A stretch of 49,915 bases of DNA from the IMG/VR virus record IMGVR_UViG_3300042460_000335, positions 1 to 49,915 of that record. The stretch is one strand, 5' to 3'. The stretch comes from a virus. This document shows, one piece after another, positions 6,505 to 23,292 of this stretch. Positions within the stretch are counted from its first letter, which is position 1; every line of letters begins with the position of its first letter. Position numbers and translations under genes: made by a program. The notes beneath the pieces are model-generated. The model saw nothing but the letters and a program-made list of their open reading frames with translations. It searched no databases and was not told where the DNA came from.

Positions 6505-7218
6505 TTAATGTCTTGTCCAATATTTACATTTAGGGAATGTCATTCCTAAACCTTCGTCATACTCTAATATTGTATCTTTAGTAATATTATACTTCTCTAT
6601 ACCTTCTTGTAGCTTTTCAGGAATCCAATAATCTATTCCTAAGAAATACCAATAATCATTACTATTATTAGTAAACTCATGTATATCATCTGCGTGAAAC
6701 GCAAACATCATACCTGATTGCAGTGGCACGTCTTCGTTGTTTATCTTAATAGAAATGTCCGGTGAACTTTGCTTTGTTGCAGTGTATATATAACGTGTGA
6801 CACCTACTTGATAAGGCAAGGTATCTACATGTGCTGAAATCTTACTACCGGGTGGACAATCCCAAACAATCATTCTACCAAATGGCCCAGTCTCTTTGTT
6901 AAACTCTCTAGCCATTTCAAATAGTTCTAATGACTTAGTGAACAAGGGATTATACTCGTACCCATTCAACGCTAACTGTATTGTACTTTCTTCATACAAA
7001 ATGTTAAAGTTTCTATTAACAAAATGCAATCTTACATCATCAAAAACACCTTTAGTAGTATTTTCTGAATTGGCTGTTCTGACCCCTTTATCATCTACTC
7101 GCCAATTAACTGCGTGATGCCATTCTGGATCAAGCTGTTTAGCTGTTTCGATTTCTGTTGCAATAGTTTCCGCCCATTCAGGAAACTGACATATATTAAA
7201 TATTGGGGAGTTCATCAT
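6505..7218 (-). CDS. 2-oxoglutarate/Fe(II) oxygenase, aspartyl/asparaginyl beta-hydroxylase-like
   Basis: This is a protein of about 237 residues. The core reads FGRMIVWDCPPGSKISAHVD. The HxD pair of an Fe(II) site lies near residues 130-132, then VTRYIY, and a distal His in DDIHEF near residue 180. This is the facial-triad layout of the aspartyl/asparaginyl hydroxylase branch of the cupin dioxygenases. The reaction would be 2-oxoglutarate-dependent hydroxylation of a protein or small molecule; the substrate is unknown. The track frame begins at a TTG. I prefer the ATG at 7218, or the one at 7215, inside the end of nrdB. No strong ribosome site is present, so coupling to nrdB translation is likely. 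It sits between nrdB and the glutaredoxin gene. Confidence 0.8.
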   Translation of the reverse strand: MMNSPIFNICQFPEWAETIATEIETAKQLDPEWHHAVNWRVDDKGVRTANSENTTKGVFDDVRLHFVNRNFNILYEESTIQLALNGYEYNPLFTKSLELFEMAREFNKETGPFGRMIVWDCPPGSKISAHVDTLPYQVGVTRYIYTATKQSSPDISIKINNEDVPLQSGMMFAFHADDIHEFTNNSNDYWYFLGIDYWIPEKLQEGIEKYNITKDTILEYDEGLGMTFPKCKYWTRH

Positions 7219-8296
7219 ATTCAATACTATCAGTCATCACACCGATAACATAGTTGGTTGATTCGTTTTCTTGTAATGCTGTTTGTTTCTTACTTGTATC
7301 AACGTGTTTGTTGAACCAAGGAATAGGTGTTGTTTTAGGTGCAGGACTATTATATCTAATACCAATTTCTTTTAATGCAGATACAGCCGTGTAATCAACA
7401 AAGTCTTTCAACACAGTTGCATTTAATCCAATGACTGGACCCATCTTAAACAAGTAGTCTGCCCATTCTTTTTCCTCACGAATAACATCCAAGTAGAGTT
7501 GGTAGACTTCACTTTCACACTCAGATTTAACTTGTGCGAAACGACTATCTTCTTTAACTACTTGGTTAATAAGGTAGGCAGTCCAGCCTTTATGGAGAAG
7601 TTCATCTTGGAGAATTAAACTGATAATATTGCCATTACCAATAAAGATTTTGTTCTCAACCATTGCTAACGATGTAGCGAATGATACCATAAAGCGGAAT
7701 GCTTCCAATGCGTAACTGGCATGTAATGCCATGTAGATTGCTTTGATGTGTTCTTTCTCGTTCACATCTTGACCTAACTCTTTGCGACAATTAACTTTGT
7801 GTAGTTCATCATAATAACGACCAACACTACTTGCCATATCTACAATCTCTTTTGTATCATGGATAGTATTGAATACATCTTTAGGTACATTATAGATGTT
7901 ACGAATGATGTGACTGTAGCTACGACTATGAATGTTAGTTTCAAAGAAACTCCAGTTGTAAATCAATGCTTCTAGTTCAGGCAATGATACTACTGGAGTA
8001 AACACTTGACTAGGTGCACGACCTTGTAAACTATCTAGTGCTGTTTGACGTAATAGGTTACTAGTAAAGATATGTTTTACTGCATCACTAGCTTCTTTAA
8101 AATCATTGGCATCTTTAGTTAGACTAACTTCTTCTGGAACCCAAAAGAAACCACGTGCTGTTGTTTCAAAATCTGCAATCTTTTTATATTTTACTTCTTC
8201 AAATCTTTGAATGGTTACGGGACCTTCCGGGTCCAAAAACATTTTTCTATTCAAATAATCTGTCTTAGTGTGTAGGTTGTATTGTTGTTTTGACAT
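7196..8296 (-). CDS. nrdB: Ribonucleotide reductase class Ia, beta (small) subunit
   Basis: This 366-residue subunit houses the diiron-tyrosyl radical that starts ribonucleotide reduction. Visible ligands and radical site, aligned by eye to E. coli NrdB, are Asp88 in ALDSLQG, Glu119 and His123 in ETNIHSRSY with the radical Tyr127, Glu in ALEAFRF, and Glu/His in DELLH. The first Glu and His are separated by three residues (T-N-I), whereas E. coli and T4 have two (T-I). This apparent one-residue insertion is reported as a finding. An AAGGA ribosome site precedes the ATG at 8296, just after the nrdA stop. The last bases overlap the 2OG-oxygenase start. It supplies dNTPs for phage replication together with nrdA. 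Confidence 0.96.
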   Translation of the reverse strand: MSKQQYNLHTKTDYLNRKMFLDPEGPVTIQRFEEVKYKKIADFETTARGFFWVPEEVSLTKDANDFKEASDAVKHIFTSNLLRQTALDSLQGRAPSQVFTPVVSLPELEALIYNWSFFETNIHSRSYSHIIRNIYNVPKDVFNTIHDTKEIVDMASSVGRYYDELHKVNCRKELGQDVNEKEHIKAIYMALHASYALEAFRFMVSFATSLAMVENKIFIGNGNIISLILQDELLHKGWTAYLINQVVKEDSRFAQVKSECESEVYQLYLDVIREEKEWADYLFKMGPVIGLNATVLKDFVDYTAVSALKEIGIRYNSPAPKTTPIPWFNKHVDTSKKQTALQENESTNYVIGVMTDSIEYDELPNI

Positions 8297-10623: not shown

Positions 10624-11063
10624 GTTCTACCTATTTTTGTAATTATTGTTTGTAAATCTAACTTTTGTACTATTTTAAAATCTTTTAGTGTATTACTTAT
10701 GACCGTATTAGGCCAGTAATTCATTATATATTTTGCGTTGTCAACTAGGACTAATACTACATCTTCTGCTGTTTCATTTCTAGCTAGTACCAATTCTATA
10801 TCAGTTATTCCTATTAGATGTAGAGTATAACACATTCCTAAGGCTCTTGCAACCTCACAGTAGGTATTTTCGGACAAAAGTTCCCAGGGGTCAGGCCAGT
10901 TGTCTATGTCATGTGGGTGTAGATGATGGGTAACCAATGGTGCATGTTGCCACCATTCGTCTATGGTTACACATTGTTGTTCTATGGGTAAACTAGTTAC
11001 GGATGTCCGTAATTGAAACCAATCTTGAAGCCTTGCTTCATAAGTTGATTGAAAGATATTCAT
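10620..11063 (-). CDS. Conserved phage hypothetical protein at the head of the nrd operon
   Basis: This is a 147-residue soluble protein. The diagnostic block is VTIDEWWQHAPLVTHHLHPH followed by WPDPWELLSENTYCEVARAL. That is a Trp/His-rich segment and then a helical one, without a catalytic pattern I can name. It is the first gene of the RNR operon, and its TGA overlaps the nrdA ATG. Its own start codon lies within a 15-bp inverted repeat (11061-11098), so translation may be controlled by RNA structure. A GATAAGTAGT decamer lies immediately upstream. I infer only that it is expressed with RNR; a link to nucleotide metabolism is not shown. Confidence 0.78.
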   Translation of the reverse strand: MNIFQSTYEARLQDWFQLRTSVTSLPIEQQCVTIDEWWQHAPLVTHHLHPHDIDNWPDPWELLSENTYCEVARALGMCYTLHLIGITDIELVLARNETAEDVVLVLVDNAKYIMNYWPNTVISNTLKDFKIVQKLDLQTIITKIGRT

Positions 11064-11098
11064 ACATCACTACTTATCATTTCTAAGTAGTGAGTATG
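11061..11098 (-). promoter_or_regulatory. Inverted repeat enclosing the start of the nrd-operon leader gene
   Basis: The two arms (catac plus tcactactta, against taagtagtga plus gtatg) pair over 15 bp with one bulged base and a seven-base loop. There is no T-run after the stem in either direction, so it is not a typical terminator. On the minus transcript the ATG at 11063 and the GATAAGTAGT motif lie inside the stem. This would sequester the initiation region unless it is melted. It could equally mark the end of the fibre operon or a protein-binding site. Confidence 0.5.
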
Positions 11099-11110
11099 AA
11101 TTTGATATTG

Positions 11111-13795
11111 TTAAGCGTAAGTTGCTTGGAATCTTGAACCAGAACTCAATGCAAAGTTACCAGTTACTGTAGCAGTAGTAGTGTTTGCACCAGTAGTGAA
11201 AGTATTACCTAAGTGTGTTGCACCTGTTCCACCAACAGTACCAGTAGAAACAAGATTACCTGCAGTTACATTACCTGTTACTGTAACCAAACCACCTGTA
11301 ATCAAGTTACCTGCAGTTACGTTACCTGTTACAGTAATCAAACCACCTGTGCCTAAGTTACCTACGTTAGCATTACCTGACACACCCAATGATGTTAGTG
11401 TGCCAACTGCTGTGATATTTGTCTGTGATGCAGTACTTAATGTACCAACTAAGTTAGTAGCACCAATGTTACCAACGTTAGCGTTGCCTGACACGCTTAA
11501 TGAACTTAATGTTCCTAAGCTAGTAATATTTGTCTGTGTTCCAGTAGTTAATGTGCCAACTAAGTTAGTAGCACCAATATTACCAACGTTAGCATTACCA
11601 CTGACACTTAATGAACTTAATGTTCCTAAGCTAGTAATGTTTGGTTGTGCCGCAGTCGTTACTGTACCTGCGCTTGTAGCTAATGGTACAGTGCCTGTTA
11701 CGTTAGCACCTGTAATTGCAGATAACGCAGAACCGTTACCACTTACGCTAGTAAATACACCTGCCGCCGCTCCAACATTACCAATATTAGCATTACCACT
11801 GATACTCAATGATGTTAGTGTACCAACACTAGTAATAGTAGGTTGTGCTACGTTAACACTGAATACACTACCTGTTAATGTTAATCCACTACCTGCAGTA
11901 TATGTACCTGCACCACTGAACTGTACCCAAACAACTGGACTTGTTCCAACTGTTGTTACTGGATCTGGCATTACCCAACCAGTGTTATCATATACTGTTC
12001 CTGCAGTAACGAATGTGAAGTCACCGCCTGCCATTTCAACTGAAGTATCAAAGTCATCTGCACGTGTTAATACTGTGCTACTTGTTCTTACATAGATACC
12101 GTTATTTGCGGCAGACACTTCGTTCTTAACAAGAATACGCATGCCATCTGACAATGTAACACCATCAATAGTTGTATATGAACCTGTTGTTGTCAATGTT
12201 GCACCAACACCACTTGTACCGTTATTATATGTAACAGTACCACCTGAGATTGTTGCTAATGTAGTTGTTGTGGCTGCGTTACAACTGTCGTGCGTATGTA
12301 GACCTTGAGCAACATCGTCAACATATTGCTTAGTTGCCGCATCAGTAGCATTAACTGGACTAGCAAGATTAATAATATTGTTGCTGGTCATATCTAAGTT
12401 ACCAGCAATAGAACTTACGCCAGTGCCAGTAACACTTAATATACCAGCTGTTACTAAGTTACCACCGGTTACGTTACCTGTTACACTTAAACTTGCTAAT
12501 GTACCTGTACTTGTAATATTTGGTTGTGCCGCAGTTGTTAATGTACCTGTTAACAATGTACCACTAATATTGCCACCAGTAATGTTACCAGTAGCAGAAA
12601 CTAGACCGCCCGTTGTGATATTGCCACCAGTGACGTTACCAGTTACACTTAAACTTGCTAATGTACCAGTACTTGTAACATTTGGTTGTGCCGCAGTTGT
12701 TAATGTACCTGTTAACAATGTACCACTAATATTGCCACCAGTAATGTTACCTGTAGCAGATACTTGACCTGCAGTTACTAAGTTACCGCCATTAACGTTA
12801 CCGGTGATATTTGCTATACCAGTTGTTACTAAGTTAGCTCCAATAACGTTACCAGATGCAGTAACAATATTTGCGCCCAATGTACCTATAATGTTGGCAC
12901 TACCATCAACTATCATATTACCTATGTTAGCAGACCCACTAACTGATAGTGCAGTTAATATTCCTAAACCTGTAATATTAGGCTGAGTACCTGTTGTTAA
13001 TGTACCTGTTACCAATGTACCACTAATATTACCACCAGTAATATTACCAGTAGCTGTGATTATACCGGCTGTTCCTAAGTTACCTACGTTAGCATTACCT
13101 GATACACTTAAACTTGTTAGTGTACCTGTACTTGTTATGTTTGGTTGTGCCGCTGTCGTTACTGTACCTGCTGTCGTTGCACTTGTAGCCGCTCCACTTA
13201 GTGCTCCAGTAAATGTTGTTGCACTTACATTACCTGCACTGATATTACCTGATACACTTAAACTTGTTAATGTACCTGTACTTGTGATATTTGGTTGAGC
13301 CGCAGTTGTTAATTCGCCTCCTACTGTTGTAAATATACCACCAGTTGCACCAATGTTACCTACATTAGCATTACCACTAGCACTAAATGTTCCTGTGACA
13401 TTTGCACCGGTCGTTGTAATAACTAATACATTTGCAACACCACCTACGCTAGTAGTTACATTACCACTAGCACCAATAATGTCAACATTACTTGTACCGT
13501 TTGCGATAGATGAAACATTAATATCACCTGCATCTAAATTACCAGTAACAGACAGATTTGTAACTGTCATTGTTGCTGATGTTTTATTGAATACTAAGTT
13601 AGCATTACCATTTAATGCACCATTGTCATTAAAAAGTACCTGTGTATTTGCACCCTGAACTGTTGGGAATGTTGTTACATTCCCGTCGGGGCTTTTAACA
13701 GACATGACACTATTATCATTGACGAACAGTGTACTTTTGCCAGCTGGTGGCGTTGCTATCGTGTTTGCTGGTTCTTGTTTTAAAATTAAACTCAT
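11111..13795 (-). CDS. Long repetitive tail fibre protein 1 (894 aa)
   Basis: This is a virion fibre, low in charge and dominated by degenerate beta-repeats such as SVSGNANVGNIGATNLVGTL and TAAQPNITSTGTL. The N-terminus contains the NTQVLFNDNGALNGNANLVF motif shared with the other long fibres in the window. Around residues 500-650 there is a compact non-repeat domain (QGLHTHD through DGMRILVKNE), also seen in three other fibres here. Two nearly identical 162-bp units lie back to back at 12484-12807. A GATAAATA late-promoter motif at 13848-13841 and an AAGGA ribosome site precede the ATG. It lacks an S74 chaperone domain and the RSAKY-type tip of its neighbours, ending instead with SGSRFQATYA. 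Confidence 0.88.
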   Translation of the reverse strand: MSLILKQEPANTIATPPAGKSTLFVNDNSVMSVKSPDGNVTTFPTVQGANTQVLFNDNGALNGNANLVFNKTSATMTVTNLSVTGNLDAGDINVSSIANGTSNVDIIGASGNVTTSVGGVANVLVITTTGANVTGTFSASGNANVGNIGATGGIFTTVGGELTTAAQPNITSTGTLTSLSVSGNISAGNVSATTFTGALSGAATSATTAGTVTTAAQPNITSTGTLTSLSVSGNANVGNLGTAGIITATGNITGGNISGTLVTGTLTTGTQPNITGLGILTALSVSGSANIGNMIVDGSANIIGTLGANIVTASGNVIGANLVTTGIANITGNVNGGNLVTAGQVSATGNITGGNISGTLLTGTLTTAAQPNVTSTGTLASLSVTGNVTGGNITTGGLVSATGNITGGNISGTLLTGTLTTAAQPNITSTGTLASLSVTGNVTGGNLVTAGILSVTGTGVSSIAGNLDMTSNNIINLASPVNATDAATKQYVDDVAQGLHTHDSCNAATTTTLATISGGTVTYNNGTSGVGATLTTTGSYTTIDGVTLSDGMRILVKNEVSAANNGIYVRTSSTVLTRADDFDTSVEMAGGDFTFVTAGTVYDNTGWVMPDPVTTVGTSPVVWVQFSGAGTYTAGSGLTLTGSVFSVNVAQPTITSVGTLTSLSISGNANIGNVGAAAGVFTSVSGNGSALSAITGANVTGTVPLATSAGTVTTAAQPNITSLGTLSSLSVSGNANVGNIGATNLVGTLTTGTQTNITSLGTLSSLSVSGNANVGNIGATNLVGTLSTASQTNITAVGTLTSLGVSGNANVGNLGTGGLITVTGNVTAGNLITGGLVTVTGNVTAGNLVSTGTVGGTGATHLGNTFTTGANTTTATVTGNFALSSGSRFQATYA
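12484..12807 (-). repeat. Two tandem 162-bp near-identical units inside tail fibre 1
   Basis: The unit beginning cacttaaacttgctaatgta at 12484 recurs at 12646 with only scattered mismatches. The period is 162 bases, or 54 residues (three times the 18-residue sub-period seen elsewhere in the fibres). The reading frame is preserved. Such repeats allow the fibre to lengthen or shorten by recombination. Confidence 0.75.
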
Positions 13796-13840
13796 GTTTT
13801 TTCCTTGTGTTTCAAGCAGTAATATACCGAATATTACTAT

Positions 13841-13848
13841 TATTTATC
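13841..13848 (-). promoter_or_regulatory. T4-like late promoter (GATAAATA) for tail fibre 1
   Basis: The minus strand reads GATAAATA here, one base from the T4 late octamer TATAAATA. It lies about 45 bases upstream of the ATG at 13795 and just before an AAGGA ribosome site. The same motif occurs at several other late-gene starts in this window. Confidence 0.6.
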
Positions 13849-13933
13849 TTTTTTTTAATCTTATTGTATTTAGAGCTATACAATAGGCATTAATTATTCG
13901 TTGTTTATCGTCAGTTAACTCATATTTTACCAT
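13844..13933 (-). CDS. Possible 29-residue small protein overlapping the zinc protein end
   Basis: This short frame starts at an ATG that overlaps the TGG TAA end of the cysteine-rich small gene (ATGGTAA) and encodes MVKYELTDDKQRIINAYCIA and nine more residues. An AGGA lies only a few bases upstream, closer than ideal. The coupling geometry is like that of other genes in this genome, and the predicted peptide has a plausible amphipathic helix with a basic end. No homology is recognised. It may also be chance reading through a short leader region, because its end overlaps the GATAAATA promoter motif. Confidence 0.35.
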   Translation of the reverse strand: MVKYELTDDKQRIINAYCIALNTIRLKKR

Positions 13934-14064
13934 TTTCCTATAGGACAAGTGCTACTTTCTATTCTAACTTTAACAGGAAGAACACAACCGCATTTTTTAC
14001 AGAACCATTCTCCGTAAAATTCACATTTCTTGCATATCTCAATTCGTTGTTCATGTAATATCAT
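13927..14064 (-). CDS. Small cysteine-rich zinc-binding protein (45 aa)
   Basis: Reading the minus strand from the ATG at 14064 gives a 45-residue protein with the pattern C-x2-C (11, 14), C-x2-C-x-C (22, 25, 27) and a closing CPIGKW (Cys40). This is a recurrent small phage protein type, recognisable by a C-x2-C pair, a CGC, a Lys and a terminal CP-x-GKW. It is presumably a zinc ribbon, but its role is unknown. It starts five bases after the stop of the fibrinogen-like tip gene, on the same strand, and ends overlapping a further small frame. The motif is too organised to be accidental. It was below the usual length cutoff for gene calling. Confidence 0.85.
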   Translation of the reverse strand: MILHEQRIEICKKCEFYGEWFCKKCGCVLPVKVRIESSTCPIGKW

Positions 14065-14069
14065 ATTAT

Positions 14070-14906
14070 TTACCAGCTTAAGAAAACGTATCCACCTTGT
14101 GTCCAAGTATTCTCATTTTGACTAGTTGTCAAATAAGGACTTGATGCAGTTCCTCTAAAAGAACTGCCACCACTATAACCACCCATATATATACCATCAT
14201 TTATGTGAATGCCGGATAATGTTAACCATTGTCCACTAGCATCCTGACCTGCTCCGCATGCACCTTGATAGGGTCCAAAATTTTGCCAACTTGGTGTATT
14301 ACTAGGGGTAGCAAATTGACTAATCAATGATGTAGTATAACTACATGATGCTGATTGACCAAAATTGCTATACCAGGCAGTAGTGTCCGGTAGTTTTTCA
14401 AATGTTTGACGTTGTGCTACTATGACCCATCTTATAGTATTTGCGACTATGATAGTATTCATATCAGTATCGCTTATTTTTGCTGATCGGCTAGGTGTTG
14501 TGTCTGTTGGAGTAACAGCTAAATCAGCTTGATTGTTTGAGGTAGTAAGATATTGATTTTGATCGTTGGGTGACAATTTAGTAACCATAACCATCGGATA
14601 GTTAGTAAATGAAGTGAAATCAGTATACATAGGCACGGTGCCACTAGTTAATGTGTAGTAATAAACACCGTTAGTGGTGACACCGGAACTTTTTAATTGC
14701 GTTGCGGAACTTGCAGGATTACCCTGAGTTCCTAGTGCTCCTAGAATACTTAACCACGATCCGGCTGCGTATCCTTCAATTGTACCTGTTGTAGTATTAT
14801 ATCTAACCATTCCGTTAGACGGGCTTGCAGGTCTTTGAGCCGTTGTTCCAGTTGGCAGACCTAAGTAACCAGTGTCGTTTATTGTTGTATTCTTTAGTGT
14901 TGCCAT
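14070..14906 (-). CDS. Tail tip protein with shared N-terminal module and fibrinogen-like segment
   Basis: This is a 278-residue protein. Residues 1-56 are the module shared by the neighbouring adhesins (MATLKNTTINDTGYLGLP, then TAQRPASPSNGMVRYNT and a WLSI end). The next section, GTQGNPASSATQLKSSG followed by NGVYYYTL and VPMYTDFTSF, resembles the opening of fibrinogen-like C-terminal domains found in phage receptor-binding proteins. The last 60 residues are aromatic and Gly/Ser-rich (GIHINDGIYMGGYSGG). It differs completely from the poly-glycine adhesins after the shared module, so it is an alternative tip attached through the same base. It ends directly before the small cysteine-rich gene. 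The receptor-binding role is inferred from architecture. Confidence 0.82.
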   Translation of the reverse strand: MATLKNTTINDTGYLGLPTGTTAQRPASPSNGMVRYNTTTGTIEGYAAGSWLSILGALGTQGNPASSATQLKSSGVTTNGVYYYTLTSGTVPMYTDFTSFTNYPMVMVTKLSPNDQNQYLTTSNNQADLAVTPTDTTPSRSAKISDTDMNTIIVANTIRWVIVAQRQTFEKLPDTTAWYSNFGQSASCSYTTSLISQFATPSNTPSWQNFGPYQGACGAGQDASGQWLTLSGIHINDGIYMGGYSGGSSFRGTASSPYLTTSQNENTWTQGGYVFLSW

Positions 14907-14910
14907 GTTA

Positions 14911-15975
14911 TTAACTAAACGTTACCGTTCCTGTTCCTGCTGTTATTGTATATATTTTATACCCTGCAATTGCGGTTGATAATGAGGTAGTCAGTCCTCC
15001 GCTAAAAGTGGCAGTAATTGCGTTAGTAATTTTTAAAATAATAACTCCATCTCCACCTTTTCCTCCGTTATTTGTTGTAGTCGATCCGCTAATATAACCG
15101 CCACCACCTCCACCACCTCCTGTATTATTTGTACCATCTTGACCAACACTGGTGCCACTAACTCCGCTTCCTCCCTGTCCGCCGCCGCCTGCACCACCTG
15201 CGCCTCTTGCAGTGTTATTAGAATTTCCACTATGATTTCCACCACCTCCACCGCCGGCGTATGTTATTGAAGAACCGGAGATAGAAGATGCAGTGCCGGT
15301 TCCACCTGCATTTGGACCAGCAGTGCTTGAATTTCCAGTACCTGCTGATGTTGCACCTCCGCCGCCGGCGCCGTACCAACTACTATTTACATATCTGCCA
15401 TTGCCGCCATTGTTTCCTTGACTAGGTGTTGTAGATGGCGTATTACCAGAGCCGCCGGCGGCTCCAACAGACGGTTCACCTATACCGCCACCGCCACCTG
15501 AACCACCATTCGCGCCAATAGCATAAGCAGACCCAGACGCTGTATAAGCACCTCCGCCGCCGCCACCGGCAGCTATTATATTATTAAATATAGAGTTAGA
15601 ACCGCTTACACCTTTGCTATTTGAATTGTTACCTGTGTCGGCTGTTGCACCGGCACCTCCTGTGCCTACTGTTACCGCATATGCTATGTTTGTTAATAAA
15701 TTAGATACAGTACCAGTTAAAAATCCTCCGGCGCCACCTCCACCAGCTGTGATGGCACCACCACCGCCACCACCAGCAACTACCAAGTATTCAATTGTAA
15801 GAGACCCGGACGCTATTGTTATCCAATTACCGGCAACATACGCTTCGTATGACGATGTAGTTGTGTTATATCTCATCATCCCGTTGGTAGGGCTTACTGG
15901 TCTTTCAGCCGTATTACCAACGGGCAATTGTAAATACCCGGTATCAGTAACATTAGTGTTCTTTAATATTGCCAT
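14911..15975 (-). CDS. Glycine-rich tail adhesin 4 (gp38-like)
   Basis: This 354-residue protein has the shared N-terminal module (MAILKNTNVTDTGYLQLPVG, TAERPVSPTNGMMRYNT, ending WITI). It is followed by LTIEYLVVAGGGGGGAITAG and about ten poly-glycine runs separated by short variable segments. This design matches the poly-glycine-helix adhesins known from gp38 of T-even phages, where the loops between the Gly runs contact the receptor. The C-terminus is a small beta segment (TATFSGGLTTSLSTAIAG). It starts four bases after the stop of the 124-residue gene. Adhesins 1 and 4 share the SIEYLVVAGGG-type linker, whereas 2 and 3 share another. Confidence 0.85.
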   Translation of the reverse strand: MAILKNTNVTDTGYLQLPVGNTAERPVSPTNGMMRYNTTTSSYEAYVAGNWITIASGSLTIEYLVVAGGGGGGAITAGGGGAGGFLTGTVSNLLTNIAYAVTVGTGGAGATADTGNNSNSKGVSGSNSIFNNIIAAGGGGGGAYTASGSAYAIGANGGSGGGGGIGEPSVGAAGGSGNTPSTTPSQGNNGGNGRYVNSSWYGAGGGGATSAGTGNSSTAGPNAGGTGTASSISGSSITYAGGGGGGNHSGNSNNTARGAGGAGGGGQGGSGVSGTSVGQDGTNNTGGGGGGGGYISGSTTTNNGGKGGDGVIILKITNAITATFSGGLTTSLSTAIAGYKIYTITAGTGTVTFS

Positions 15976-15979
15976 TATT

Positions 15980-16354
15980 TTATTCTGTTGTAGGACCTAC
16001 ATCCCAACGTATTGCAAAATCATTCCAAATATACATTTTTCCGTCATTTGGGTAAGCAACTGGTGCTTCCCAGCGACAAGTTGTCTCATTCAATATCCAA
16101 CTATTGAATGGTTTAGGTGATATGAATGCATCTCTAGTTTCATCGTATGTAAAACCTATACCTGCATAGTTTTTTCTAATGTTAGCATTATAGCTAGTTT
16201 GTTTCCATATAGTATTTGGTCCTAGTAGACTCTTACAGAACGCTATGCCTGTAAGTTCACTTTCATTACCTTCACTATCTTTTATATCATCATTACTTAC
16301 AACAATTACTTGTGTAACGATGTTATTTTCATCTAATTGTGCAAAATGTGCCAT
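15980..16354 (-). CDS. Conserved small phage protein of the tail region (124 aa)
   Basis: This is a 124-residue protein of a type common in aquatic myoviruses and often found near fibre genes. It starts MAHFAQLDENNIVTQVIVV, has IWKQTSYNANIRKNYAGIG and TYDETRDAFISPKPFNSW in the middle, and ends TCRWEAPVAYPNDGKMYIW. No catalytic pattern is evident. The compact aromatic beta composition and location suggest a minor tail or fibre-associated protein. A good AGAGGAA ribosome site precedes the ATG. It interrupts the adhesin series between copies 3 and 4, lacks the shared N-terminal module, and so is not itself one of the series. Confidence 0.82.
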   Translation of the reverse strand: MAHFAQLDENNIVTQVIVVSNDDIKDSEGNESELTGIAFCKSLLGPNTIWKQTSYNANIRKNYAGIGFTYDETRDAFISPKPFNSWILNETTCRWEAPVAYPNDGKMYIWNDFAIRWDVGPTTE

Positions 16355-16368
16355 ATTTTATTCCTCTA

Positions 16369-17451
16369 TTATTGATATCTATATTTAACAATGACTATAC
16401 CTGAGCCACCATTTGTTCCTATATTGTTTGGTCCACCATTACCCGCACAGGCGCCGCCCCCTCCACCTGTATTAGCACCACCATTACCACCAAAGAATCC
16501 ACTTGGGGTTCCACCTACATTTATACCACCTGTGCCACCAGATCCAAAACGACCACTATCACCCCAGCCGCCTCCGCCCCCACCAAGTCCTCCGTTACCA
16601 CCAAATGTACCGGATTGATTATAGTAATAAATCATCCCTGCTCCACCTCCGGCCCAATAATAATTATTGCCGTCTATGTTTATTTGAACTCCGGAGCCAC
16701 CGTTGCCACCTGAACTAGCAGGGTCTAGTGGAGATACTCCATTTGCACCTGCCCCTGCGCCGCCACCAGTTGGGTAATTTACACCGTTTTGACCTGCGCC
16801 ACCAGTGTATCCACCATATCTAGTGAACACATAATTTATATTTTGTCCTGTTATACCTGCATATCCTGCAGTTCTAGAACCACCACCGCCCCCATTAGCA
16901 ATGATGCTAGGTAGTGTACGTGGTCCATTATAATCTGATCCCAATCCGCCACCACCGGGTTTTGCTGTTTCACCAAATGCTGTAGTAGGACTACCACTAG
17001 TCTGTATATCACTTGAACCAGATGCGCTAGGAGACGCTCCTGCTCCAATAACAATGCTATACGCATTTGAAATTAGATTGACTGAGGTACTGTATATAAC
17101 TTCTCCACCACCACCTCCACCACAATATGAACCACCTGCCCCACCGCCCCCTACCATTAATACCTCAGCAGTTGCTCCTATAGGAGCACTATTTACAGTA
17201 AATGCACTAGAACTAGTAAATGTGTGAATTTTATAATCACCACTAGTAGTTACTGTTCCCCCTGTTGCAACAGTGTATCCTACATACATTGCACTAAACC
17301 AAGCTCCGTTTATATAAACTTCAACATATTTAGTGTCAGTATTGACTCTACTATAACCTTCGGCAGGACTACCTGGTCGTTGGGCTGTATTACCATTAGG
17401 AAGCCCCATATAGCCAGTATCATTGATAATAGTATTCTTTAATGTTGCCAT
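16369..17451 (-). CDS. Glycine-rich tail adhesin 3 (gp38-like)
   Basis: The start at 17451 (MATLKNTIINDTGYMGLP) is chosen because it matches its paralogs and lies one base after the upstream stop. The longer frame would overlap the previous gene. The 360-residue protein has the shared module to about residue 56. A linker follows (YKIHTFTSSSAFTVNSAP), then EVLMVGGGGAGG and a series of poly-Gly runs, ending NGGSGIVIVKYRYQ. It is closely similar to adhesin 2 in length, linker and C-terminus, so the two probably arose by duplication. The divergent loops between Gly runs are the expected receptor-contact sites. Substrate is unknown. Confidence 0.86.
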   Translation of the reverse strand: MATLKNTIINDTGYMGLPNGNTAQRPGSPAEGYSRVNTDTKYVEVYINGAWFSAMYVGYTVATGGTVTTSGDYKIHTFTSSSAFTVNSAPIGATAEVLMVGGGGAGGSYCGGGGGGEVIYSTSVNLISNAYSIVIGAGASPSASGSSDIQTSGSPTTAFGETAKPGGGGLGSDYNGPRTLPSIIANGGGGGSRTAGYAGITGQNINYVFTRYGGYTGGAGQNGVNYPTGGGAGAGANGVSPLDPASSGGNGGSGVQINIDGNNYYWAGGGAGMIYYYNQSGTFGGNGGLGGGGGGWGDSGRFGSGGTGGINVGGTPSGFFGGNGGANTGGGGGACAGNGGPNNIGTNGGSGIVIVKYRYQ

Positions 17452-17452
17452 C

Positions 17453-18532
17453 TTATTGATACCTGTAACGAACAATAACTATTCCGGAGCCGCCATTACC
17501 ACCTAATACTCCACTGCCGCCATCGCCTGCACCTGCGCCTCCACCGCCACCGGTATTTGCGCCGGCTGATCCGCCCACGAATCCACTAGGGTTTCCACCT
17601 GTATTGTAACCATTTCCACCTGAGCCATACCATCCTCCTGGTGCCCAACCACCTCCGCCACCACCTAATCCACCATTGCCACCTCTTGTACCAGAAGATC
17701 CGCCATAGTAAATCATGCCGGCGCCGCCGCCGCCCCAGTATACTGATGCGCCGGTTATGTTTATAGCTACTCCAATACCTCCGTTGCCCCCTCCGACAGC
17801 TCCGTCTGTAATTGACGCAGTACTTGCGCCTGCGCCTGGACCACCTACAGATGGATAGTTAGGAGAACCTGTTCCGTTACCGCCTGAGTTGCCACCATAT
17901 CTAGTGAATGGTATTGCAACATTGGTGCCGATAGAGCCACCGTAACCAGTAGAGCGACTTGCGCCACCACCGCCATTAGCATATGTACTTGATGAAGGGA
18001 AAGTTGATGAGTCTGATCCTTTACCACCTCCACCTGCTTTAGCTGTTTCGCCAAATGCTGTTGTTACTGAACCTGGATTGCCTATGATATTGCCACCATT
18101 ACCGTCAGGTGATGTACCACCTGCTCCAATAACAATACTATATGCTTGTACTGCTAATGTAGCTGATGTTGTATATAATACTTCTCCTGCACCACCGCCA
18201 CCTGAGTAACCACCTGAGCTACCACCTCCACCAACCATTAGTATTTCAAAAGCAGTTCCTGCAGGCGCAGATGTAACAGTAAATGTTCCAGATGCGATGA
18301 ATGTGTGAATTTTATAATTACCTGAATAAGTAATAATTCCTCCCGTAGCTGATGGCAATGCTAGTGAAGATACAGTATTCCATATTCCATTGTAATACAT
18401 CTCTATAGTTGATGATGTAGAGTTAACTCTCATATATCCATTAGCAGGACTTACAGGTCTTTGAGCCGTAGTTCCAATTGGCATACCTAAGTAACCTGTG
18501 TCATTGATAGTTGTGTTCTTTAGTGTTGCCAT
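17453..18532 (-). CDS. Glycine-rich tail adhesin 2 (gp38-like)
   Basis: This 359-residue paralog of adhesin 3 has the shared module (MATLKNTTINDTGYLGMPIG, TAQRPVSPANGYMRVNS), the linker YKIHTFIASGTFTVTSAP, EILMVGGGGSSGG, and many poly-Gly runs. Like adhesin 3 it ends GIVIVRYRYQ. Its stop codon is followed after one base by the next ATG, so the two are strictly co-translated. Conserved framework with changed inter-glycine loops is the pattern expected for host-range variants, though the sequence cannot show which receptor is used. Confidence 0.86.
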   Translation of the reverse strand: MATLKNTTINDTGYLGMPIGTTAQRPVSPANGYMRVNSTSSTIEMYYNGIWNTVSSLALPSATGGIITYSGNYKIHTFIASGTFTVTSAPAGTAFEILMVGGGGSSGGYSGGGGAGEVLYTTSATLAVQAYSIVIGAGGTSPDGNGGNIIGNPGSVTTAFGETAKAGGGGKGSDSSTFPSSSTYANGGGGASRSTGYGGSIGTNVAIPFTRYGGNSGGNGTGSPNYPSVGGPGAGASTASITDGAVGGGNGGIGVAINITGASVYWGGGGAGMIYYGGSSGTRGGNGGLGGGGGGWAPGGWYGSGGNGYNTGGNPSGFVGGSAGANTGGGGGAGAGDGGSGVLGGNGGSGIVIVRYRYQ

Positions 18533-18541
18533 ATTATATAT

Positions 18542-19549
18542 TTACCATGCAATTGAACCTGTTGCTGTGAACGTGTATATTCTATATCCACCTGCAGTAG
18601 TTACCGTTGGTGAGCCTGTAGTAGATGTTGCGAGTGAATATGCGTCTGGATAGCGTATAACGACTATACCAGAGCCTCCAAGACCACCTGTATTATTGCT
18701 TGGATAACCACCTGCTCCGCCACCGCCCCCAGTATTTACTGTGCCGGCGCCTGCTACACTTCCACTACCACTAGCACCACTACCTCCCCCTCCAGTGCCG
18801 CCGGGTGCTGAAGAACTTAAACTATAGCCGCCTCCACCTCCACCTCCCGCATAATATGTTCCTGTTCCTGTTATAGATGATAACGCTCCTATACCACCTG
18901 ATCCTGCAGTGCCAGATATAGCATTACCACCAACAGCTCCGGCACCACCTCCACCTGCACCACTGGCAGCGCCGGCGCCATCGCCACCAAAACTATCAAC
19001 ACCACCGTTGTTACCTTGACTCGGTGTTGTTGCTGGTGTATTACCTGACCCCACTGTTCCTCCTCGGCCACCAACTGATCGACCTTGGCCGCCACCTGAA
19101 CCACCATTGGCTATATTTGAGGGTGTAGCTTCACCACCATTACCTAGTCCTCCACCTGTGGATGTTATACCATTAAACACAGAGTTTGATCCTTGTGTTC
19201 CATAACCACCACCAGTGCCACCAGTGCCACCTCCACCAACTGTTACAGTGTAGGTAACTCCTGTAGTTATAGCTAAACCAGTTGCTGTTCTATAGCCACC
19301 ACCGCCTGCACCACCTCCAATATATCCGCCGCCGCCACCCCCACCCGCAACAACTAAATAATCTACTGTAGAAGGTATGTTACTACTTAGTGATAACCAT
19401 GCAGTTCCATTCCATAATTCTACTTGTGATAATGATGTATTCCATCTAGTCATTCCTGCAGTAGGGCTTGAAGGTCTTTGTGCCGTAGTGCCACTAGGTA
19501 ATTGTAAATAACCGGTATCATTAATGGTAGTGTTCTTTAATGTTGCCAT
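18542..19549 (-). CDS. Glycine-rich tail adhesin 1 (gp38-like)
   Basis: The start at 19549 (MATLKNTTINDTGYLQLPSG) is preferred over the longer frame because it aligns with the paralogs and follows the upstream stop by two bases. The 335-residue protein has the shared module ending WLSL, then VDYLVVAGGGGGGGYIGGGA, repeated poly-Gly runs, and a C-terminal beta segment (YRIYTFTATGSIAW). Its linker and tail group it with adhesin 4 rather than with 2 and 3. So there are two subfamilies on one N-terminal base. Confidence 0.86.
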   Translation of the reverse strand: MATLKNTTINDTGYLQLPSGTTAQRPSSPTAGMTRWNTSLSQVELWNGTAWLSLSSNIPSTVDYLVVAGGGGGGGYIGGGAGGGGYRTATGLAITTGVTYTVTVGGGGTGGTGGGYGTQGSNSVFNGITSTGGGLGNGGEATPSNIANGGSGGGQGRSVGGRGGTVGSGNTPATTPSQGNNGGVDSFGGDGAGAASGAGGGGAGAVGGNAISGTAGSGGIGALSSITGTGTYYAGGGGGGGYSLSSSAPGGTGGGGSGASGSGSVAGAGTVNTGGGGGAGGYPSNNTGGLGGSGIVVIRYPDAYSLATSTTGSPTVTTAGGYRIYTFTATGSIAW

Positions 19550-19551
19550 AT

Positions 19552-19722
19552 TTATAATCCAAATTTTACCCAAGCATTACCGTTATACACCTCAGCGTAT
19601 CCTAGTGTTGTATTAAATCTTACCATACCAGCAATAGGACTTGCCGGTCGTTGAACTGTATTTCCTGAAGGTAAATTCAAAAACCCAGTGTCATCGATAG
19701 TAGTGTTCTTTAATGTTGCCAC
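19552..19722 (-). CDS. Free-standing copy of the adhesin N-terminal module (56 aa, GTG start)
   Basis: Reading from a GTG at 19722 gives 56 residues: VATLKNTTIDDTGFLNLPSG, then TVQRPASPIAGMVRFNT, ending NAWVKFGL and a stop. It aligns end to end with the first 56 residues of the five neighbouring tip proteins and has no C-terminal adhesin. It sits between the S74-containing fibre (stop 13 bases upstream, AAAGG in the gap) and adhesin 1 (ATG two bases after its stop). It could be a cap protein for unoccupied fibre tips, or a remnant of an adhesin that lost its variable part. The intact frame and tight spacing favour an expressed gene. Confidence 0.78.
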   Translation of the reverse strand: MATLKNTTIDDTGFLNLPSGNTVQRPASPIAGMVRFNTTLGYAEVYNGNAWVKFGL

Positions 19723-19734
19723 TTTACACTACCT

Positions 19735-22700
19735 TTATTTCTTGTTGTTCTTAGCGGTACCTTTAAGGATAGCAATTTCATCATTTAAAACCTTAATTGA
19801 TTCTAATAGATAAACAGACAAACGTGAGTAGAACACGCTTTCTGGATTACCATTACTATCTGTTTTTACAAGATTAGGAATAATCTTATATACATCTTCA
19901 GCAACTAGTCCAGCTTCATCTTTACTTGAGCCATCTTTTCTGTCGTATATCTGTCCTAACAATTGTAGAACTTTCTCTAATGGATTCTCAATAGGTCTAA
20001 AGTTTTCTTTCAATGCTAGACTAGATGTTTCTGTGAAGGTAGTAGCAGTTACTCCGGCTGCAAAAGTTACATCGCTACTATTGTATACTACGGTCATAAA
20101 GTTCGTGTCAACATTATTGTCTCGTCTGAACAATGTTACTGTATCGGGTGAAGAGTTGTACTTTATACCACCGCCATATACTCTACTTTGTCCTACATAT
20201 ACAGTAGCATTCACCTGTTGCGCGCCGTCACTAGTATCGCCACAAACTTCTAAAGTGGCAGCACTATTACTGTTAGAATGAATTAAGGCAGTTACTCCTG
20301 CATTTTTTACAGTTAAACTTGTACCAATCATGTTACCAACACTTACATTACCAGTAGTTGTGATTGTATTACTGCCATAACTAGCTAAGAATGTAGCAAC
20401 GTTTGCATTTCCATATGTTGCGGCCGCAACAGCAAACACACCATTACCATATAACACTGTGCTTGCATTACCATCAATATTAATAGATGCGATATTGCCT
20501 ATTCCCGCAACATTAGCTAATGCTACTGCATTTGCGGTTGATGCATAGTTTGCTAAGTTAACAGCACCTGTTACGTTTGCACCAGCTACTGCATTGGCTG
20601 TTGTTGCAAAACTTACCGCACCTGATACGTTTGCACCAGCTACCGCATTAGCAGTAGCCGCAAAACTTACTTGTCCACTTACATTACCGCCTGCGACCGC
20701 ATTCGCTGTTGCGGCAAAACTTACTTGTCCACTTACATTACCGCCTGCGACCGCATTCGCTGTTGCGGCAAAACTTACTTGTCCGGTTACATTACCACCT
20801 GTAATAGATGTTAATGCTGATCCATTGCCGCTTACATTAGTAAATACACCATTCGTAGCACCGATATTACCTACATTAGCATTTCCTGATACACTTAGAC
20901 TTGCTAATGTACCAACTGCTGTCACTTGTGTTTGACTTGCATTTATGTTGAATGTAGTGCCTACTAATGATAATCCAGTACCTGCATCATATACCTGACT
21001 TGTACTGAATGTACTGAATACAATATTTGAAGTTCCAAATGTAATTTCACCAGTAGGGGCACTAACAATAAACGCAGTACCTTCATTTACTACACCACCT
21101 AATGTGAAGAAATAATCATTAATTCCAAGATGGTCTGTTCCGTTAAGGTCTACACCGTACGTGTCAGTATCAGTTGAACGTACAATAGCTGTTGTATTAG
21201 AATATGTGTATACGCCGTTCCAGGCTGCATTTGCTTCATCTTTAACTAAGATACGTGTACCAACAGTTTGAACATTAGCACCATCAATATTTAAGAAAGT
21301 ACCAGTTGTGCTAATATACGCACCAATACCGTTTGCGGCTCCGTTTGGCGAGTTGTATGCAGTTGTACCACTCGTAGCAGTAGCCAATGTTGTTGTTGTT
21401 GCTACATTAACTGGTTGATGATAGCTGATGCCACTTGATGACATTGTGTCAACATATTGTTTAGATGCGGCATCTGTATTAGCACTTGGATAGCCTAAGT
21501 TGTTTATATATTGGCTATTCATATTAACATTAGCACTAAACGATCCTGTACCACTAGCGACTAAATTAGTTGTGCCTATATTGCCTACATTGGCATTGCC
21601 TGATACTGATACTGACGTTAGTATGCCAGTGCTTGTTATATTTGGTTGTGCGTTAGTTGTTAATGATCCAGCTACTGTTGTAAATACACCACCTGTAGCT
21701 CCAATATTACCTACGTTAGCATTACCTGTAGTTGTATTAGAACCAACTAAGTTTAAATATGCTGATCCATCATTTGTTGTTTGCCATGTATCAGTTGTTT
21801 CATTCCAACGCAGTTGAACGGCTGCTTCATCACCTCTGATTACTCGTATGCCTGCATTGTTAACAGGAACGCCTGTCGTTTCAGCACTGATATCAATAAT
21901 GTTATCTTCTACTGTCAATGACGTTACACTTAAGTTGCCACCAACACCATTAATTGTTAAATTGCCAGAGATAGTTACATCATCGTTAAGTTGAATATTA
22001 CCAGTGCCATTGGCACTGATTGTTAAATTTGTATTTGCTGATAGACTAGAAAGTGTATCAACATTGATTGGGTTACTGAACCCGATTGGGCCGCCGGTGC
22101 TACTTGTTATATAGTTAGCGGCTTGAATTTGTAATGGACCTTTAACTGCAACAACACCTGTGCCTGTTGTTTGTAGTTGAACATCGCCTGATCCACTTGA
22201 TGTTACTTTAACTGTTTGATTCAAATCAGCAGAGACAACAATTGCGTTACTTGATTCTTCTAATACTTTAACACCATTAATGTATAGTGAGCCCGGGCCA
22301 ATGAACGCATCTTTCCAATATGAACTTGCGCTACCTAAACTGTATGTGTTATTACTTGTGGGTACAATGTTACCAGTAATGTTTGCATTGTTAGCAGATA
22401 TATTACCATTAACTGTTAAACTAGTTAATGTACCAACTGATGTTATGTTAGGTTGTGCGGCTGTTGTCAATGAGCCCGCAACAGTTGTAAATACACCTGC
22501 GGCTGCACCAATGTTGCCAACGTTAGCATTAGCTGTTACGCTTAAACTTGCTAATGTACCCGTGCTTGTGATATTTGGTTGTGCGGCTGTTGTTACAGTA
22601 CCTGCAGTTGTTGCACTAGATACTGCACCGGATACATTAGCACCTTGAATGTTTGATAGTCCATTACCGTTGCCAGCTAGATAAGGTGCAGTAAAGATAC

Positions 22701-23292
22701 CCGTAGTCTTATTAAAAGTAAATCCAGTATTACCACCAAATGCACTAGCGTCATTAAATTGAACTTGAGTGTCTGTTCCACCTGGTGATCCATTACCACC
22801 CGCGCCGGCTGCCCAAGTTAATGTACCTGAACCGTTTGTTTGCAAGTAATAACCTGATGAGCCACCAGAAATAGAAACGTTTGCTATATTTGCGTTTAAT
22901 GCAGTAGCAGTTCCACCGCTTCCTCCATTGCCGTTATCATTAACATCAACTAATACACCATCAACAGTCATTGTGCCGTCAATTGTGATTGGGTATCCAA
23001 ATAGACCTTGATAGTTTGCCGCAATCAATAATTCATCACCTACTGCTACATAAGTAGGCATTGGTGCAGGATTTGCTTCAATAGTTGCATTACCAAATGA
23101 TAAATTGCCAGACCCGTCTGTTGTAATAAATTGACCGGTAGTACCACCTGTAATTTTTACATTACCAACTGCACCTAGATTGCTTAAACCTGTGACGGAC
23201 AAATTTGTTCCGGTGATGTTACCAGACTCAGCACTGAGTATAATATTGCCGGTTGTTATGCCGTTCTTTACTACGAAATTTTTTGTCGTCAC
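19735..23292 (-). CDS. Long tail fibre 2 with C-terminal S74 intramolecular chaperone
   Basis: This is an 1185-residue fibre. It starts at a GTG (23292; VTTKNFVVKNGITTGNIIL after the initiator), sharing its N-terminus with tail fibre 3. The body is beta-repeats, with the mid-domain also found in fibres 1, 3 and 5 (ISYHQPVNVATTTTLATAT, VGTRILVKDEAN). About five 18-residue units (VSFAATANAVAGGNVSGQ type) occupy residues 825-905. The last 95 residues are a peptidase S74 domain: SSLALKENFRPIENPLEKVL, then GLVAEDVYKIIPNLV and LSVYLLESIKVLNDEI. Such domains trimerise the fibre and then cut themselves off, using a Ser/Lys pair in the first motif. It is directly upstream of the adhesin series, so the mature fibre may be the carrier for those tips. 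Confidence 0.9.
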   Translation of the reverse strand: MTTKNFVVKNGITTGNIILSAESGNITGTNLSVTGLSNLGAVGNVKITGGTTGQFITTDGSGNLSFGNATIEANPAPMPTYVAVGDELLIAANYQGLFGYPITIDGTMTVDGVLVDVNDNGNGGSGGTATALNANIANVSISGGSSGYYLQTNGSGTLTWAAGAGGNGSPGGTDTQVQFNDASAFGGNTGFTFNKTTGIFTAPYLAGNGNGLSNIQGANVSGAVSSATTAGTVTTAAQPNITSTGTLASLSVTANANVGNIGAAAGVFTTVAGSLTTAAQPNITSVGTLTSLTVNGNISANNANITGNIVPTSNNTYSLGSASSYWKDAFIGPGSLYINGVKVLEESSNAIVVSADLNQTVKVTSSGSGDVQLQTTGTGVVAVKGPLQIQAANYITSSTGGPIGFSNPINVDTLSSLSANTNLTISANGTGNIQLNDDVTISGNLTINGVGGNLSVTSLTVEDNIIDISAETTGVPVNNAGIRVIRGDEAAVQLRWNETTDTWQTTNDGSAYLNLVGSNTTTGNANVGNIGATGGVFTTVAGSLTTNAQPNITSTGILTSVSVSGNANVGNIGTTNLVASGTGSFSANVNMNSQYINNLGYPSANTDAASKQYVDTMSSSGISYHQPVNVATTTTLATATSGTTAYNSPNGAANGIGAYISTTGTFLNIDGANVQTVGTRILVKDEANAAWNGVYTYSNTTAIVRSTDTDTYGVDLNGTDHLGINDYFFTLGGVVNEGTAFIVSAPTGEITFGTSNIVFSTFSTSQVYDAGTGLSLVGTTFNINASQTQVTAVGTLASLSVSGNANVGNIGATNGVFTNVSGNGSALTSITGGNVTGQVSFAATANAVAGGNVSGQVSFAATANAVAGGNVSGQVSFAATANAVAGANVSGAVSFATTANAVAGANVTGAVNLANYASTANAVALANVAGIGNIASINIDGNASTVLYGNGVFAVAAATYGNANVATFLASYGSNTITTTGNVSVGNMIGTSLTVKNAGVTALIHSNSNSAATLEVCGDTSDGAQQVNATVYVGQSRVYGGGIKYNSSPDTVTLFRRDNNVDTNFMTVVYNSSDVTFAAGVTATTFTETSSLALKENFRPIENPLEKVLQLLGQIYDRKDGSSKDEAGLVAEDVYKIIPNLVKTDSNGNPESVFYSRLSVYLLESIKVLNDEIAILKGTAKNNKK
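20566..20822 (-). repeat. 54-bp tandem repeats in tail fibre 2, two copies perfect
   Basis: The 54-base unit beginning caaaacttacttgtccactt at 20661 is repeated exactly at 20715, with a third partial copy at 20769 and two diverged copies on the other flank. Each unit encodes 18 residues (core AATANAVAGGNVSGQ). Perfect identity of adjacent units at the DNA level means the expansion is recent. Confidence 0.85.

Follow-up and report, generated by a model that had tools for sequence, protein, structure and literature searches.

An array of six co-directional genes on a common 56-residue N-terminal module occupies positions 14,070-19,722 of the IMG/VR virus record IMGVR_UViG_3300042460_000335 (49,915 bases, analysed at its full length and hereafter called the window). 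We put a probability of roughly 0.6 on the reading that this locus is one co-transcribed tail-fibre cassette, which would encode several separate small adhesins that have one base in common. The module would form that base: a small β domain that folds alone, probably trimerises and docks to a shared site on a fibre or the baseplate. The parts that follow it, which are glycine-rich or fibrinogen/intelectin-like in the window and of other kinds in relatives, would act as receptor-binding tips, perhaps displayed together on the virion. Because the base would be common and the tips independent, recombination in or at the module could remove, add and replace tips in the course of evolution, with the set staying stable within one phage. 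The gene g1 would encode a conserved subunit without a tip, such as a spacer or cap where docking takes place, and a further small gene, MAH, would go with the glycine-rich tips and most likely aid their folding or assembly. The genes of the array, in the order in which they are read, and the two large genes that flank it are:

19552-19722, minus strand: g1, module only (module at 19555-19722), 56 amino acids (aa), starting with GTG and with its stop next to the g2 start
18542-19549, minus strand: g2, module (19382-19549) and glycine-rich tip of subfamily A, 335 aa, PF21722
17453-18532, minus strand: g3, module (18365-18532) and glycine-rich tip of subfamily B, 359 aa, PF21722; syntenic counterpart a5 in the relative R1 (see below), 75% aa identity
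16369-17451, minus strand: g4, module (17284-17451) and glycine-rich tip of subfamily B, 360 aa from the ATG at 17451, PF21722; syntenic counterpart a6 in R1, 71% aa identity
15980-16354, minus strand: MAH gene, without module, 124 aa, phrog_7759, between g4 and g5; candidate assembly partner of glycine-rich adhesins
14911-15975, minus strand: g5, module (15808-15975) and glycine-rich tip of subfamily A, 354 aa, PF21722
14070-14906, minus strand: g6, module (14739-14906; predicted structure confident at about residues 11-55) and fibrinogen/intelectin-like tip by family profile, 278 aa; counterpart in locus L089, 76% aa identity
19735-23292, minus strand: large fibre protein just upstream of the array, with a C-terminal Peptidase_S74 chaperone domain (PF13884, E 1.1e-8) and matches to long tail fiber distal subunit PHROGs
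11111-13795, minus strand: large fibre-like protein downstream of the array, which ends the cluster and is followed by a 147-aa gene and nrdA/nrdB

The module and its tips

The original prediction had described six genes with this N-terminal module, one of them being the module alone, and both points hold: a regular-expression scan of all six frames and a search with g6 found all six on the minus strand, g1 being the module-only gene, and no further module copy in the window. A seventh gene of the array, absent from that description, is named MAH after its first residues (MAHFAQ). The genes are closely spaced, all run in one direction and sit within a cluster of large fibre genes, with the capsid genes on one side and nrdA/nrdB on the other. 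As promoter-like sites in the array are no more numerous than expected by chance and it is not flanked by paired long inverted repeats, the tight co-directional packing makes constitutive co-expression the simplest arrangement to suppose. The T4 late-promoter core TATAAATA has its sole copy in the window at 19549-19556 (minus strand), against 7.7 expected by chance, where it overlaps the g1 stop and the g2 start, an apparent avoidance of the motif. By capsid protein, the nearest cultured phages are Vibrio phage 2.275.O and the PA5oct group of Pseudomonas jumbo phages, at 65-67% identity.

The six modules are 50-66% identical in pairwise comparison, with 21 of the 56 columns invariant, and the module part of the g6 structure model is predicted with a local distance difference test score (pLDDT) of 82-93. 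Foldseek relates it, across 46 columns, to a piece of the trimeric tailspike CBA120 TSP3 (probability 1.00; E 0.1), and the module profile matches near the TSP3 C-terminus (E 0.16) as well as the C-terminus of Gp49 in the PDB (E 0.006). This likeness, drawn from a model and from profiles, would fit a small trimeric fibre element and is a lead for docking rather than a proof of it. The module precedes very diverse partners, with at least 16 tip clusters among 75 tipped module genes.

The tips of g2-g5 match PF21722 (Gly_rich_2) at E-values of 5e-17 to 3e-10, with 52.2, 46.7, 41 and 63 bits respectively against a Pfam gathering cut-off of 24.3. They fall into two subfamilies, g3/g4 (64% tip identity) and g2/g5 (51%), with 40-46% identity between them, and g3/g4 contain an extra segment of about 35 aa between the module and the glycine domain. 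Four poly-glycine tips in two subfamilies had been predicted from the sequence, and this part stands; their description as gp38-like does not carry over as homology. PF21722 is their sole Pfam match, the Gp38 family being absent, and a PDB sequence search with g3 and with the glycine alignment returned nothing beyond chance, so that the term denotes an analogy of composition and position. As in the S16/T2-type gp38 adhesin, a glycine-rich tip gene lies downstream of a long-tail-fibre gene and the glycine motifs are better conserved than the loops between them: glycine columns are 83-84% identical in the g3/a5 and g4/a6 pairs, against 65-72% elsewhere. The array differs in lacking a Gp38 Pfam or PDB match, in its several copies and in a glycine domain that belongs to PF21722. 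Moreover, the T-even gp38 N-terminus attaches to the gp37 tip, whereas the N-terminus here is the module, which is also found on non-glycine tips.

The original prediction had further regarded adhesins 2 and 3 as recent duplicates. Even the closest pair, g3/g4, has only 64% tip identity and about 65% DNA identity, with synonymous sites saturated, and 88 of the 187 residues they share have identical codons, compared with 79.9 expected from codon usage. These values rule out a recent g3/g4 duplication, and on this sequence evidence the two are old paralogues.

For g6 the predicted fibrinogen-like tip is borne out at the level of the family. A profile built from g6 plus five relatives hits intelectin-1 (E 2.6e-7), angiopoietin-2 (E 1e-4) and also XEEL, and a related protein of phage S-8S29 matches Fibrinogen_C at E 0.0019, below the curated cut-off. 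On its own g6 has no Pfam match, and its tip model is too poor to confirm a fold (pLDDT mostly below 50). It might thus be seen as a divergent relative of the fibrinogen-related domains and intelectins that the family profile matches.

Turnover of the locus and exchange of tips

Relatives with capsid proteins 92-95% identical to that of the window possess differing sets of these genes, or none. One of them, R1 (capsid 94%), is represented by two contigs (G004 and G005; loci L098 and L138), which have an exact 127-base common end and were treated as neighbouring parts of a single genome. Its array comprises six module genes, two MAH genes and one 2-oxoglutarate (2OG)-Fe(II) oxygenase. At the place of g1 is a1, with the same GTG start and a 470-aa immunoglobulin (Ig)/TIG/glycine tip; a2 bears another tip, and the four glycine genes include a5 and a6, the counterparts of g3 and g4. 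In G017 (capsid 95%), three glycine genes with other N-termini stand in tandem and are accompanied by MAH, and the module is absent. Module and MAH are both absent from G019 (capsid 94%), its capsid-to-nrdA distance being about 14.5 kb versus about 25 kb, and G021 and G023 combine MAH with glycine genes and have no module. The locus thus changes its content between phages whose capsid proteins are 92-95% identical, as read from these sequences. A further run in R1 consists of three genes (357-375 aa) that have a weaker module core and one common C-terminal tip type, located on L290 (G005) at about 9.0-5.7 kb on the minus strand (10906-14180 of the reverse complement).

Direct evidence of exchange comes from the cultured Melnitz phages. 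Melnitz-2 and Melnitz-3 are 99.87% identical over 9.0 kb upstream and 100% identical over 2.9 kb downstream; in gene 183 they are about 95% identical over the first 150 nt and about 55% identical from nt 151. This junction, at base 151, is inside the module core (AQRANAQ/VGD, the slash marking the junction), and the tips beyond it differ, being glycine-rich in one strain only. In gene 175 the first approximately 90 aa are kept, followed in Melnitz-2 by the module, a glycine tip and MAH, and in Melnitz-3 by an unrelated tip with no MAH. Gene 181 of Melnitz-2 is not glycine-rich and has no MAH, whereas that of Melnitz-3 is glycine-rich and is followed by MAH. A related event is seen at L108, where the module-only gene and a neighbour with a different tip share 25 of 28 module codons (12.4 expected, p=1e-6); by this codon identity the base was recently copied in L108 beside another tip.

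Within the window, exchange has left little trace. Two near-clones were found: L001, 99.92% identical over 14.8 kb that span the whole array, and L088, 99.90% identical over 12.1 kb that reach from the interior of g3 past g6. Between L088 and the window, 11 of the 12 differences over 12 kb fall in 67 bp of the g3 tip, with one residue changed (S176Q). This tract would derive from mosaicism with a diverged strain, whether genuine or introduced in assembly, and its nearly silent character points to purifying selection. An origin from a paralogue was rejected, as no paralogue is closer. The near-clone differences cluster in short tracts in g3, in the fibre gene at 11111-13795, in nrdA and in the fibre gene at 19735-23292, which may be strain mosaics or assembly bubbles. 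Homogenisation of the modules within the window was likewise rejected, for it gives no signal beyond codon usage after correction: the best module pairs (g1/g4, p=0.004; g3/g6, p=0.007; g2/g5, p=0.023) fail it. A pooled within-versus-between-genome test over all relatives gives p=0.0005; we do not rely on it, as it contains no codon-usage control and one near-identical contig pair was counted as one genome. A diversity-generating retroelement finds no support, for there is no reverse transcriptase among the open reading frames (ORFs) scanned, and the L088 changes are not adenine-specific. Nor does an invertible switch of the Mu Gin type: there is a single weak 21-nt inverted pair within g5-g6 and no recombinase among the scanned ORFs.

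The module-only gene and MAH

Module-only genes make up 12 of the 87 distinct complete genes with a full module, are 53-61 aa long and occur exactly once in each array that has one. Besides the window (19552-19722) they are found at L096, L099, L100, L103, L104, L106, L108, L111, L118, L122 and L127. Three subfamilies are constant in length and C-terminus (g1, L096, L100 and L108; L099, L103, L104 and L127; L106 and L118), and within them the ratio of nonsynonymous to synonymous differences (pN/pS) is 0.14-0.45, one near-identical pair excepted. The ACG-2014a version, of 79 aa, is invariant among strains. It could be argued that g1 is a functionless truncation relic or by-product of recombination, as the R1 gene at its place combines the same start and a similar module with a long tip. 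This is improbable, given that the twelve module-only genes stand on separate contigs, one per array, in three constant subfamilies under such pN/pS values; the same recurrence and ratios argue, at the level of sequence, that g1 is a maintained, conserved gene and not debris.

The MAH gene is strongly associated with glycine-rich tips. At 62 distinct loci with upstream sequence, the gene immediately upstream of MAH is glycine-rich in 52, against a background of 12.6% of the ORFs of the same contigs (p=5e-37), and the gene immediately downstream is glycine-rich at only 6. The exceptions mostly have a 2OG-oxygenase-like gene immediately upstream, and beyond it, as a rule, a glycine-rich gene at the next position or the one after. 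The family occurs across phages of very different kinds, and few of the MAH-linked glycine genes contain the module; hence MAH goes with the tip and not with the base. In accord with this, the two Melnitz strains gained or lost MAH together with a glycine tip at two loci (genes 175 and 181).

The structure of MAH is predicted with a pLDDT of 92, and the model has no match among solved structures; nor did MAH yield a relative among Pfam and NCBIfam families or PDB sequences. By analogy, the likeliest role of MAH is that of an assembly partner of glycine-rich adhesins, which would help fold or assemble the tips. The main alternative, which we hold to be a serious contender though the less probable of the two, is that MAH is no chaperone but an extra virion protein at the tip, such as a cap, or that the linkage reflects operon inheritance alone. 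It is favoured by the lack of sequence or fold similarity to known tail-fibre chaperones of the Mu TFA/Pam3 gp25 type, the Mu tail fibre-chaperone complex (5yvq) being an insignificant structural neighbour (E 3.8, probability 0.11). However, the linkage is strongly directional and holds for glycine tips whatever their N-terminus, and the co-replacement of MAH with the tip parallels phage Pam3, in which the glycine-rich fibre gp24 requires the chaperone gp25, a protein undetected in virions (PMC9608196). Pam3 thus shares a glycine-rich distal domain with a small gene alongside, and differs in that MAH has no match to solved chaperones. The 2OG-Fe(II) oxygenase-like gene repeatedly adjoins MAH, as at L138:2286-2903 (PF13759) and, by sequence similarity, upstream of MAH in L049, L054, L064, L070, L072, L073 and L078; a weak match to an Asp/Arg hydroxylase lies at 6505-7224 of the window. 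Modification of fibre proteins is a possible role for such neighbours.

Alternative readings and related systems

Two other readings concern the locus as a whole. The proteins might be Hoc-like decorations of the head or tail shaft that bind host-surface or environmental glycans and raise encounter rates, rather than adhesins at a fibre tip. Tips with fibrinogen/intelectin-like, Ig-like (He_PIG, TIG) and F5/8-like domains would suit this role, some PHROGs matched by the module are filed under 'head and packaging', and a fibre-like ORF on the downstream side has a match to a 'head decoration' PHROG. We think this unlikely, because the array follows the S74 tail-fibre gene within a fibre cluster, and the Melnitz and cyanophage arrays stand beside tail-fibre genes, short or long. 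Slightly less probable still is that a single adhesin is displayed per virion or infection and the others are silent donors for recombination. Such a reserve would account for the Melnitz tip replacement with its junction in the module and for the recent module copying in L108. Against it, all genes of the array are intact and form one operon-like unit with no invertible or promoter switches; the almost silent differences in the g3 tip of L088 fit an expressed gene, and g3 and g4 keep 71-75% identity with their syntenic counterparts at synonymous saturation.

Several observations also weigh against the reading of an adhesin cassette with exchangeable tips. The near-clones L001 and L088 keep the tip genes of the window wherever they overlap the array, and six cyanophages of the ACG-2014a species have an invariant array with almost no amino-acid change. 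The modules of the window are at synonymous saturation, with 12 of the 15 pairs at the codon-usage expectation and none significant after correction. The tailspike piece to which the module is likened is C-terminal and not a known N-terminal docking domain, and the matches are short with weak E-values. The g6 tip is without a confident model; some glycine genes, such as Melnitz-3 gene 183, have no MAH directly after them, so that MAH is not strictly one per adhesin; and the 'virion structural protein' PHROG matches are annotation only. Lastly, no host-range difference is reported among the four Melnitz variants on the panel of their authors (PMC9004378). Tip exchange by recombination within the module, as originally predicted, is therefore right for this protein class, being seen in the Melnitz-2/3 junction, L108 and the turnover at 92-95% capsid identity; it is not seen in the window itself, its near-clones or the ACG-2014a strains, where the comparison of close relatives found the tip genes kept. 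Exchange may affect host range, and the other original suggestion, that the phage can present several receptors, is likewise a conjecture.

Arrays on a common base are widespread in aquatic phages, and the window virus infects aquatic bacteria. Cultured Kyanoviridae have the same layout after their fibre genes: that of ACG-2014a has the 79-aa module-only gene with F5/8-like and glycine tips, that of S-8S29 two fibrinogen-like tips, and that of S-TIM4 three fibrinogen-like tips, one glycine tip and MAH; Melnitz is a further case of this layout. In S-TIM4 (L294, 29521-45886) the three fibrinogen/intelectin-like tips are in tandem, with near-identical C-terminal ends, and are accompanied by the glycine tip and MAH; this phage is reported to infect Prochlorococcus and Synechococcus (PMC6224464).

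Such loci resemble the host recognition cluster or metaviromic island of pelagimyophages, cyanomyophages and other marine phages, for which lectin-like, C1q, fibrinogen-like and Gp38 proteins are listed together with Fe(II) oxygenases (PMC7029224, PMC3909814). Like these, the array is a fibre/adhesin cluster at a fixed place that varies between related phages, with Melnitz, S-TIM4 and ACG-2014a as cultured examples. The branched multi-tailspike complex of Ackermannviridae (CBA120, S117), whose genes interchange, recombine and are deleted (PMC8825819, PMC11414711), similarly has several receptor-binding genes side by side whose N-terminal parts are related, receptor binding being presumed for the array. 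Those tailspikes are enzymes with other docking domains, whereas here a 56-aa base precedes predicted binding folds, up to six genes occur per array along with a base-only gene, and the module matches the C-terminal part of TSP3. Variable marine clusters and exchangeable multi-adhesin complexes were thus known before; in the portions of open-access text that our search reached, including those of the two island papers, we did not find the shared module, the module-only gene or the MAH-glycine linkage described.

More tentatively, and as a rather doubtful extension, the locus may be a three-part plug-in system, in which interchangeable tips on one base are combined with a dedicated tip-less base protein of the g1 type and with MAH as an assembly protein specific to the glycine tips and travelling with them, the g1 type filling or capping docking sites and so setting the numbers of each kind of adhesin. 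If so, replacement of a tip would need only a crossover in the module, and for glycine tips the co-transfer of MAH. For the 'hypothetical proteins' of cultured and uncultured aquatic myophages, these results offer an anatomy of base, tip types, base-only gene and a small gene linked to glycine tips. They also make it testable, in Melnitz on OM43 and in cyanophages as harmless cultured systems, whether phages of the sea and of fresh water retain several adhesins simultaneously and how their tips can be exchanged with assembly left intact.

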